This document shows, in pieces, positions 2,709 through 8,450 of a stretch of DNA of 64,000 nucleotides. The notes beneath the pieces were generated by a model. It saw nothing but the letters and a program-made list of their open reading frames with translations, searched no databases and was not told the origin of the DNA. Within the stretch, counting starts at the first letter, position 1. The number at the start of each line of letters is the position of its first letter. The position numbers and the translations under genes are program-made. Source of the stretch: Microthrixaceae bacterium (GTDB taxonomy: Bacteria; Actinomycetota; Acidimicrobiia; Acidimicrobiales; Poriferisodalaceae); contig WTFX01000009.1 of assembly GCA_011523825.1 (NCBI GenBank), positions 538,420-602,419 of the forward strand, written 5' to 3'.

Positions 2709-2743
2709 CGTTTCCAGCGAGCCACGGCCGTCGAGGGGGAGTC

Positions 2744-3340
2744 ATGGCAAACAAGCACGGCTACTTGCCGAAGGTGACCGAGCTGGACGACAAGCAGCAA
2801 CGTCGCTTGGACACGTGGTATGCGAAGGCCTACACCGACGACAACCTGTTCCGCACGCTCGCCGCCGATGAGACCACCATCGACCTGTTCCTCGGCTGGG
2901 TCGGTGCTGTGTACGGCGGCCATCCCGACGAGGACGCCGGTGCGCTCGACCGGCACATGATCGAGCTGTGCCGCATCCGGATGGCCAACCGGAACGAGTG
3001 CTTCCACTGAAGCCTCGTGCGCAGCGCATCGTTGGTGCGCACCGGACTGACCGACGAAGTCGTGGCCCAGCTCACCGACTACGAGGCATCGGACTTGCCC
3101 GAGGCGTGGAAGGCGGCGCTCGCCCTGTGCGACCGGCTCTCGGGCTACGAGCACAAGGGCGTGATCCCGCCCGAGCTGTACGAGCGGCTTGCGGATCACT
3201 TCAACGAGCAACAGATCTTGCGCCTGGGCGCATTGCTCGCGTCGGCAAGCGGGTGGCACCGGATGATCGAGGCATTCGGCATCCGGCCCGATCACTACCA
3301 GGCCGAACAATCTGCCCCTTGGGCCGCAGCAGCGGGTTGA
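2744..3340 (+). CDS. Carboxymuconolactone decarboxylase/AhpD-fold protein, candidate selenoprotein (in-frame TGA at codon 89)
   Basis: Conventional reading gives two pieces: 88 codons from ATG 2744 ending in NECFH, and a second part opening at GTG 3017. Both are in the same frame, separated only by TGA 3008-3010. Read through, the protein is 198 aa and resembles CMD/AhpD-like proteins over its whole length (ELCRIRMANRNECFH, then SLVRSASLVRTGL). In that family a CxxC pair follows the ELxRIRxA helix. Here it reads Cys86-Phe-His-TGA89, so the TGA sits at the second redox cysteine, as in known CxxU selenoproteins. A hairpin follows directly. The ribosome site GAGGGG is well placed, and the next gene starts on the true stop. 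Alternatives are a nonsense mutation or a sequencing error; recoding fits best because of the exact position. No Sec machinery is visible in the window. Confidence 0.8.
3014..3045 (+). promoter_or_regulatory. SECIS-like hairpin directly after the in-frame TGA
   Basis: Seven consecutive pairs join 3017-3023 (GTGCGCA) with 3036-3042 (TGCGCAC). Beyond one G-G mismatch (3024/3035) come C3025-G3034 and G3026-T3033, leaving the loop CATCGT at 3027-3032. Below a C-C mismatch (3016/3043), 3014-3015 can pair with 3044-3045. The apical loop opens about 16 nt after the TGA, and a G sits at its base. This matches the general description of bacterial SECIS elements (hairpin inside the coding region just downstream of UGA, loop G). 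The pairing is read directly; SelB binding is inference. Confidence 0.55.
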
Positions 3341-4179
3341 GCCTGGGCACCGAGCCACTGTCGCCGGGCGACCGGCTCGCAGATGTCGTCGAGTTCTTCG
3401 GCCTGCAGGCCACCGACGACGAGTTGCGCTGGCACCTGCCCATCTCGCCGAACGTCGCCAACTATCTCGGTGTGATGCACGGCGGCTGCGCCCTTGCCGC
3501 TGTCACAGCGGCCGCCGAGACATGGAGCGAGCGGCCACTCGCGGCAGCTTCGGCGCAGTTCATGGCCCGTGTCCCGCTCGGCGGCAGCGCTGAGATCACC
3601 TTCGATATCGGTTCGGCCGGCAAGCGAATGACGCAGGTGCTCGCACAGGTCACCGATGCAGCCGACGGCCGTGTGCTGATGCGAGCGCTGCTGGCACTTG
3701 GCGGTCGCCGGCTCGGCATCGACCAGGACTGGGGACAGCCGCCCGACGTTCCGGGGCCAGATGAATGGCAACGCCGTACTGTGCCGGACAACGCCGTTGC
3801 GTCGTTCAGCACCGACGCCGACATCCGGTTCGGTCCGCACAGCGCTGGTGATCGGCGGATCCTCTGCTGGGCGCGGCTCGCCGGCACGCTGGCCTCCACG
3901 CGCCAGGGCCTGATAGCGCTGGCAGACACGCTCGCAACGGGGATGCACCGCAGCCTTGGCCTGAAGTGGCGTGGCGGCAGCATCGACAACACCGTGCGCA
4001 TCGCTGGCGACGCCGACTGCGAGTGGGTCCTGCTTGATATCGAGACCGACGGGTTCCACAACGCTGTCGGCCACGGCGTCGTGCGGATCTACACGCCCGA
4101 CGGCGGGTTGCTGGCCACCGGGAACCAGTCGTTCGCCGTGGCGCGGGTGTCCGGGCCGGTAGAGGGCTTCCGGCCGTAG
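3337..4179 (+). CDS. Acyl-CoA thioesterase-like protein, double hotdog (copy 1)
   Basis: 280 aa. The first half carries a hotdog signature (VMHGGCALAAVTAAAE, then AAASAQFMARVPLGG); the second half repeats a related fold, as in TesB-like/4HBT_3 proteins that combine two hotdogs in one chain. Such enzymes hydrolyse acyl-CoA thioesters; the chain specificity cannot be read. The start is uncertain: TTG 3337 overlaps the stop of the preceding gene (TTGA), implying translational coupling, and the open frame continues upstream without another good start. The next gene is a close paralogue, so the pair arose by tandem duplication. Coupling to the CMD-fold gene suggests a shared acyl or peroxide-linked substrate (inference). 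Confidence 0.7.
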   Translation: MSLGTEPLSPGDRLADVVEFFGLQATDDELRWHLPISPNVANYLGVMHGGCALAAVTAAAETWSERPLAAASAQFMARVPLGGSAEITFDIGSAGKRMTQVLAQVTDAADGRVLMRALLALGGRRLGIDQDWGQPPDVPGPDEWQRRTVPDNAVASFSTDADIRFGPHSAGDRRILCWARLAGTLASTRQGLIALADTLATGMHRSLGLKWRGGSIDNTVRIAGDADCEWVLLDIETDGFHNAVGHGVVRIYTPDGGLLATGNQSFAVARVSGPVEGFRP

Positions 4180-4186
4180 TCAGCAC

Positions 4187-4192
4187 TAGCTT
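4187..4192 (+). promoter_or_regulatory. -10 element TAGCTT, leaderless start at 4201
   Basis: TAGCTT ends 8 nt before GTG 4201 and no Shine-Dalgarno fits in between. The spacing places the transcription start on or next to the start codon. No -35 element is recognisable. Confidence 0.45.
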
Positions 4193-4200
4193 TCGGCTGC

Positions 4201-5052
4201 GTGAGCGCCGAGGCTGCCACCAGCGACGCTGCGCCGCAGGATCCGCACGTCGGCGAGGTGATCGAGTTCTTCGGCCTCCAGTCGACGCCCGAAGAACTGC
4301 GCTGGCTGCTGCCGGTCACCTACGACGTGGCGGGCGCCACCGGCACGCTGCATGGCGGGTGCGCGCTCGCGTCCGCCGTGGCGGCCCTGGAGAGCGTCAC
4401 GGGCCGGCCGATGGCTGCTGCGTCGGCCCAATACTTGGCGCGGCTGCCGGTCGGGGGCTGCGCAGCCATCGCCCTCGACATCGGCGCCAGCGGCAACCGC
4501 ATGACCCAGGCATCCGCTGAGATCACCGACTCCGCCGATGGCCGCGTCATTCTGCGTGCGCTCGTCTCGCTCGGCGGCCGGCAGCTCGGAATCGACCAGA
4601 CATGGACGACCGCCCCGAACGTGCCGTCGCCGGAGTCATGCGAGCTCCGCGGCCCGACGTCGATCGAGGGTCGCTCGTTCACCGACCACGCAGACATCCG
4701 GCTCGCTGGGCAGCAGCCGGGTGAGCGCCATGTGCGGTACTGGGCGCGACTCGACGGCACGCTCGCATCGACCGGACCGGGCTTGACGGCGCTGGCCGAC
4801 CTGCTGCCGAGCGGGATGCGTGTCAGCCTCGATGCCGGATTCAGGGGGTCCAGCCTCGACAACACGGTGCGGATCTCTGGCGAGGCCGAGAGCGAGTGGG
4901 TGCTCTTGGACATCGAGTCGGACGCTGTCCACAACGCGATCGGCAACGGCATCGTTCGCATCTATGCGTCCGACGGGGGACTGCTGGCGACCGGAACCCA
5001 ATCGTTCGCGATCACCCGCATCACGGGTCCGCTGGGCTCGCCGCAGCAATGA
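4201..5052 (+). CDS. Acyl-CoA thioesterase-like protein, double hotdog (copy 2)
   Basis: 283 aa from GTG 4201. It is clearly homologous along its whole length to the gene before it: both share GEVIEFFGLQ/ADVVEFFGLQ, LHGGCALA/MHGGCALA, the stretch around SGNRMTQASAEI/AGKRMTQVLAQV, and the SLDNTVRI/SIDNTVRI block in the second half. Membership in the TesB-like/4HBT_3 acyl-CoA thioesterase group is inferred from these motifs. The gene appears to have its own promoter (TAGCTT 4187-4192) and a leaderless GTG start. Its stop overlaps the menA start by four bases (ATGA), so it leads a short operon with menA. The substrate is unknown. Confidence 0.75.
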   Translation: MSAEAATSDAAPQDPHVGEVIEFFGLQSTPEELRWLLPVTYDVAGATGTLHGGCALASAVAALESVTGRPMAAASAQYLARLPVGGCAAIALDIGASGNRMTQASAEITDSADGRVILRALVSLGGRQLGIDQTWTTAPNVPSPESCELRGPTSIEGRSFTDHADIRLAGQQPGERHVRYWARLDGTLASTGPGLTALADLLPSGMRVSLDAGFRGSSLDNTVRISGEAESEWVLLDIESDAVHNAIGNGIVRIYASDGGLLATGTQSFAITRITGPLGSPQQ

Positions 5053-7691: not shown

Positions 7692-8450
7692 GTGAGTGCC
7701 GCAGCGAGTGCCGATCCCGTGATCTCGATCGGTGCCGACCAGCATGGCGCTGTCGCGGAGGCCAATGCCGCACACTGGCCGCCCGGAGCACTGGCTGCGG
7801 CATTGCGCCTGCAGCTCCGCGACATCTCAGGACCCACGTCGGTGTGGATCGATCACCCCGACTTCGGCGAAACGGACCGGGGCGACCTTGCGCCAACCGA
7901 GACTGAACTCGGGCGAGGGCTCGCCGAGCTCGGCCTGACATTCGAGCGCGATCTCTACCGTATGGAGCGATCCCTGCCCATGGATCAGCCCAGCGGAATC
8001 GAGACCCGTTCGTTCGTGGTCGGCGAGGACGAGCAAGCCTGGGTGGAGGTCAACAACCGTGCGTTCTCCTGGCACCGCGAGCAGGGCGGCTGGACGCTGG
8101 CCCAGGTAGCCGAGCGTCAAGCCGAGCCGTGGTTCGACGCCGACGGCTTTCGTGTATACGACATCGACGGCCATATCGCCGCCTACTGCTGGACCAAGGT
8201 GCACGCCGATGAGGACCCGCCGGTCGGAGAGGTGTACGTCATCGCGGTAGATCCGCGTTACCACGGCCGCGGTCTCGGCCGGGCGCTGACGCTGGCCGGC
8301 TACGAGCATCTCGCCGATGCAGGCCTGACTCGGGCGATGCTCTACGTCGACGCCGACAACACCCCCGCCGTCACGCTGTACCTCGACCTCGGCTTGGAGG
8401 TGGCCGTCGTGCGGCGACTGTTCACCGGCACCGGTCCGCTGGCGTCGTAG
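7692..8450 (+). CDS. mshD: GNAT acetyltransferase, mycothiol synthase MshD-like
   Basis: 252 aa. The C-terminal half is a clear GNAT domain: EQGGWTLAQVAERQAEPWF, AAYCWTKVHAD, GEVYVIAVDPRYHGRGLGRA (acetyl-CoA-binding GRGLG) and MLYVDADNTPAVTLY. These blocks match mycothiol synthase, which acetylates Cys-GlcN-Ins in the last step of mycothiol synthesis. The family is usually about 300 aa with two GNAT domains; here the N-terminal one is shortened and poorly conserved, as is tolerated in a non-catalytic half. The leaderless GTG start is supported by TAGCCT at 7679. MshD is the best reading; another small-molecule acetyltransferase remains possible. Confidence 0.75.
   Translation: MSAAASADPVISIGADQHGAVAEANAAHWPPGALAAALRLQLRDISGPTSVWIDHPDFGETDRGDLAPTETELGRGLAELGLTFERDLYRMERSLPMDQPSGIETRSFVVGEDEQAWVEVNNRAFSWHREQGGWTLAQVAERQAEPWFDADGFRVYDIDGHIAAYCWTKVHADEDPPVGEVYVIAVDPRYHGRGLGRALTLAGYEHLADAGLTRAMLYVDADNTPAVTLYLDLGLEVAVVRRLFTGTGPLAS

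Follow-up and report, generated by a model that had tools for sequence, protein, structure and literature searches.

A model of bacterial SECIS (bSECIS) elements given in a 2026 review comprises a stem of 4-16 bp, an apical loop of 3-9 nt with a G in its first two positions and the pattern N1-G-[G/U]-N-N2, a distance of 16-37 nt from UGA to the apical loop and a minimum free energy (MFE) of -7.5 kcal/mol or lower (PMC13188914). The element of Escherichia coli is a 17-nt hairpin located 11 nt after UGA, in which the loop nucleotides G23 and U24 as well as a bulged U17 matter (PMC8659212). With regard to the proteins, AhpD-like and CMD-like selenoproteins with a CxxU motif are already known, including families from the Sargasso Sea (PMC1088965, PMC9312934, PMC13188914).

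The gene described here lies in a stretch of 64,000 nt, termed the window, from a Microthrixaceae bacterium (GCA_011523825.1, contig WTFX01000009.1, positions 538,420-602,419 of the forward strand). It starts with ATG at position 2744, ends with its own terminator TGA (3338-3340) and contains a further TGA in frame (Table 1). This internal TGA is almost certainly read as selenocysteine (Sec), as judged from sequence comparison, with predicted insertion at residue 89. As the gene itself terminates in TGA, UGA is not a sense codon throughout the genome, and context decides on its reading.

Table 1. Features of the selenoprotein gene and of further candidate selenoprotein genes from the same genome.
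Feature	Position	Strand	Details and basis
AhpD/CMD-fold selenoprotein gene, TGA read through	2744..3340	+	198 residues, Sec at 89
Probable ribosome-binding site of the selenoprotein gene, GAGGGGGAG	2733..2741	+	Sequence; proposed from its position 2 nt before ATG 2744
In-frame TGA, almost certainly read as Sec (C86-F-H-U89)	3008..3010	+	TGA in 29/29 high-scoring homologues
Serine codon AGC immediately 3' of TGA	3011..3013	+	Codon usage, 29 genes
Very probable SECIS hairpin GCGCAUC-GUU-GGUGCGC, 17 nt, 7 pairs	3024..3040	+	Folding, alignment; starts 13 nt after UGA
Apical loop GUU	3031..3033	+	20 nt after UGA; invariant in 27 aligned genes
Originally predicted hairpin (3017-3023 paired with 3036-3042), alternative fold sharing its 3' arm with the SECIS hairpin, unconserved	3017..3042	+	Folding, alignment
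SelD gene (L074), in-frame TGA (GAGUACKLGP) and SECIS-like hairpin	G000:C28:31140-32090	minus	Same genome
FdhA-like gene (L075:1732), in-frame TGA (SCNRTUHAPS) and SECIS-like hairpin	G000:C15		Same genome

A divergent AhpD/CMD-fold selenoprotein and its distribution

The encoded protein is a divergent CxxU selenoprotein of the AhpD/CMD fold. An AlphaFold2 model of the read-through product (pLDDT 80, pTM 0.78) matches the structures 2prr, 3c1l and 2pfx, and the protein profile matches 2prr at 7.6e-15. The fold extends to either side of residue 89, with U89 aligned to the second cysteine of the CxxC pair. For PF02627 the window protein scores below the gathering threshold (17.8 of 23 bits), while the model matches 26 of 26 members tested at E <= 0.01, with a best value of 3.5e-11. 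With the AhpD-/CMD-like CxxU selenoproteins represented by NF041238, NF053654 and TIGR01926 the protein shares the CMD/AhpD fold and the location of Sec as the second residue of CxxU; unlike these, it scores far under the curated NCBIfam cut-offs (24.4 of 175, 35.6 of 310 and 20.7 of 81.8 bits, respectively). A role as thiol/selenol peroxidase or reductase may be proposed. In other genomes, two distant AhpD/CMD relatives (L039:1669 and, on the minus strand, L049) carry TGA at the second CxxC position as well (motifs CGYU and CHTU) with hairpins behind it, and they may represent additional Sec forms of the superfamily.

Conservation of the TGA was surveyed at several levels of relatedness. In a genome scan, all 14 relatives, 65-96% identical, had TGA at the Sec codon. 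Within the order, 298 genomes were searched and 21 (own genome included) were retrieved with E <= 1e-25 and identities down to 43%, each gene containing exactly one TGA. Among 397 genomes searched with a profile, 29 sequences reached 266-328 bits and all of them contained TGA, whereas the next three proteins, at 78-87 bits, were devoid of it; a cysteine version was not found among the close homologues in this search. In every close homologue a cysteine precedes the in-frame TGA with two residues in between (C-F-H-U or C-V-H-U). For comparison, 29 distinct coding sequences were aligned, some species having been reached by two routes. In the samples searched, close homologues were confined to one order within the Acidimicrobiia: a profile search of the wider class yielded no further close relatives outside this order, and no relatives were found on viral contigs. 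The subfamily, seen here in a single order, is new and apparently restricted to the Sec form.

The genome is equipped for Sec decoding, as it encodes SelA and SelD, a tRNA-Sec with the anticodon UCA (66.3 bits) and a SelB protein of 574 residues containing the SelB-wing_3 winged-helix domain. All 21 genomes that carry the gene also have SelA, compared with 13 of the 25 sampled ones in which a close homologue is lacking (p = 0.00014). Other selenoproteins of the genome were sought by family only. Since the genes for SelD and an FdhA-like protein also combine an in-frame TGA with a hairpin, the genome has at least three candidate selenoproteins. The hairpin of the SelD gene reads UGGCGCAG-GUC-CUGCGCCA, that of the FdhA-like gene GUCGUC-GGUCU-GGCGAC; the latter has an energy of -6.8 kcal/mol in isolation, slightly above the limit of -7.5. 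The apical five bases are CGUUG (CMD gene), GGUCC and GGUCU, from which a consensus N-G-U-Y-N may be derived for the three elements of this one genome.

Two overlapping hairpins downstream of the TGA codon

The hairpin at 3024-3040 is very probably the SECIS element of the selenoprotein gene. Across 27 aligned genes (22 distinct sequences) its positions are paired in 100% of cases, controls being far lower, and RNAalifold recovers the helix unprompted. Compensatory changes, which the original prediction had proposed to look for, are present: in two pairs both bases are altered, in one or two sequences per pair, namely pair 3026-3038 (GC to UA in homologue L066, GC to UG in L068) and pair 3025-3039 (CG to UA in L068). 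In addition, pair 3029-3035 changes from U-G to U-A in three sequences, while three pairs never vary. Three sequences, two of them left out of this alignment and one found later, are divergent: L070, L100 and L071. L070 and L100 possess equivalents at nearly the same place in a shifted register (GUCAUCA-AGUU-UGAUGAC and GCUCAUCG-GUCU-UGGUGAGC, respectively); in L071 an equivalent hairpin is doubtful.

Measured against the published model, the hairpin agrees in stem length (7 bp) and loop size (3 nt), in the loop sequence, where GUU with its C-G closing pair fits N1-G-[G/U]-N-N2, in the spacing between UGA and loop (20 nt) and in energy (-8.8 kcal/mol alone, -10.3 kcal/mol with flanks); it is furthermore conserved together with the TGA. 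Like the SECIS of E. coli fdhF, it is a 17-nt hairpin near UGA within the coding region whose small loop has G followed by U (PMC13188914, PMC8659212). It differs from the E. coli element in beginning 13 instead of 11 nt after UGA, in its loop of 3 nt (GUU vs. GGUC(U)), in a sequence almost frozen across genera and in the absence of a bulge corresponding to U17, the seven pairs between 3024-3030 and 3034-3040 being uninterrupted.

The original prediction had placed the SECIS element in a different helix, formed by 3017-3023 and 3036-3042. The seven pairs proposed for it, followed by one mismatch and two inner pairs, all exist, and when 3008-3060 is folded this helix is indeed the minimum-energy structure, at -16.9 kcal/mol for the stretch (-14.3 kcal/mol for the hairpin by itself). 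The G assigned to the base of its loop is not there in this fold, the 6-nt loop being CAUCGU (3027-3032), in conflict with the published bSECIS loop rule. Nor does its stability exceed chance: z-scores range from -0.07 to -0.87 for stretches of 35-53 nt, 37-89 of 200 dinucleotide shuffles of these stretches fold as stably or better, and a bSECIS-like hairpin lies behind 11.5% of the 1524 TGA triplets that the GC-rich window has on its two strands. Taken by itself, the fold is thus weak evidence, and the claim that it lends independent support to recoding was unjustified; such support comes from the near-invariant codons and the compensatory pairs at 3024-3040. TGA-containing homologues without the named hairpin, which had been put forward as grounds for refutation, are the rule: the helix forms only in the window gene and one close relative, with 48% of cells paired across homologues and no compensated pair. 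In nearly all relatives it is disrupted in 3017-3023 (e.g., GTCAAGA vs. GTGCGCA in the window gene); most relatives in the genus carry GTC AAG (Val-Lys) here, as against GTG CGC (Val-Arg) beside a repeated GCGCA in the lineage of the window. What was said about a bacterial SECIS directly behind the Sec TGA is hence strongly supported by the comparative data and the complete Sec machinery, while conservation lies in another helix than the one named: the element is real and its location was right, but its register was wrong. Hairpin 3017-3042 is most likely incidental.

A ribosome poised at UGA covers roughly the next ten nucleotides. At 3008-3010 it would melt structures within this distance including the 5' arm 3017-3023, while the 17-nt hairpin, 13 nt downstream, would remain outside. 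The C-terminal winged-helix domain of SelB, in complex with GTP and Sec-tRNA-Sec, would then bind the GUU loop, and SelB would deliver Sec to the A site, such that Sec89 becomes the second residue of an AhpD/CMD-type CxxC pair (C86-F-H-U89). Hairpin 3024-3040 is a candidate SelB binding site directing Sec insertion.

In the free RNA of the window gene, the fold 3017-3042 is about 4 kcal/mol more stable than hairpin 3024-3040, which competes with it for the 3' arm. In the lineage of the window, the former could act as an RNA switch, a stronger resting hairpin that keeps the SECIS 3' arm sequestered until a ribosome reaches UGA; if so, the SECIS would form only on arrival of the ribosome and SelB would be recruited just in time. 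We consider this unlikely, a designed switch being unsupported because the resting hairpin is limited to the window gene and one close relative. The same energy difference would favor the reading that helix 3017-3023/3036-3042 is itself the SECIS and the shorter hairpin incidental. This is very improbable: relatives keep the TGA without the helix, its 5' arm sits 6-12 nt after UGA, where the ribosome is expected, and folding begun 9 nt after UGA yields hairpin 3024-3040 instead.

Codon constraint and remaining alternatives

Codon entropy was evaluated for residues conserved in >= 85% of the 29 genes and having four or more codons each; it amounts to 0.21 bits in codons +5 to +10 after the TGA vs. 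1.66 bits elsewhere (Mann-Whitney p = 6e-5, a value that ignores relatedness among the sequences), and among 45 columns these six codons rank 1-5 and 7. When the window's codons are recoded synonymously, a 7-bp bSECIS-like hairpin survives in only 3% of cases. The serine codon following TGA is AGC in 86% of the 29 genes and AGT in the remainder, despite the existence of six serine codons. Low codon diversity across homologues was also observed at about 2825-2843, 55-61 codons or so before the TGA, where K-A-Y-x-D-D-N is encoded with AAG and one GAC at 100%; this is possibly ordinary codon bias.

That positions 3023-3040 are near-invariant on account of the peptide, or of a DNA or RNA site unrelated to recoding, is scarcely credible. 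The peptide SASLVR is well conserved in homologues, but codon choice is frozen at the hairpin only, uncommon codons such as TTG are retained in GC-rich and AT-richer relatives alike, and pairing is kept where the peptide changes (L066, L068, L070 and L100). As to an unrelated site, the exact pattern of TGA plus hairpin is present a single time in its own genome, and the 395 other genomes of the phylum sample do not have it, so that a mobile or widely shared motif is not apparent. An Rfam scan of the window returned one tRNA and no other match.

Equally hard to believe is that the TGA is a real stop after which a second protein is reinitiated at codon +9 (TTG GTG or TTG ATG), resulting in two half-proteins. 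The aligned homologues that bear the standard hairpin use GTG or ATG as codon +9, a constraint already accounted for by the pairing. Reinitiation would leave codons +1 to +4, between TGA and hairpin, untranslated, yet they vary in a largely synonymous or conservative manner (LVK, MVK and LVR among homologues) and the stretch therefore appears to be translated. Such a split would moreover run through both the CxxC-type active site and the AhpD fold, and SelA accompanies the gene in every genome. A recent nonsense mutation, a sequencing error or a reassignment of TGA across the genome, for which nothing speaks beyond a bare in-frame TGA, is refuted by the conserved TGA and has a negligible probability, given the same TGA in independent assemblies from many genera, downstream substitutions that fall mainly on third codon positions in close relatives, and the gene's own TGA terminator.

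Genomic neighborhood and significance

Directly upstream of the selenoprotein gene, 123-2660 encodes a bacterial polynucleotide kinase-phosphatase with a ligase domain (TIGR04075, 1288.9 bits), and two genes for acyl-CoA-thioesterase-like proteins (4HBT_3) lie behind it at 3340-5052. In the window's family, almost every locus has one or both of the latter behind the selenoprotein gene; in loci of more distant families, where the flanks are short, they were not seen. An acetyltransferase resembling the mycothiol synthase MshD is encoded at 7692-8450 (TIGR03448, 186 of 163 bits, with the match extending over roughly the C-terminal half of the model); one candidate for reducing the CxxU protein would be mycothiol.

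In the open-access full texts searched, the name of the class and the term selenoprotein co-occur in a single paper, on an unrelated topic. With this gene the lineage gains a selenoprotein subfamily that apparently lacks a close cysteine form, and TGA-containing genes of this kind run the risk of annotation as truncated proteins. The locus also illustrates that the minimum-energy fold of a free mRNA can indicate the wrong SECIS register, and the near-invariant SECIS with its compensatory exceptions constitutes a clean set for the loop rule of actinobacterial SelB.
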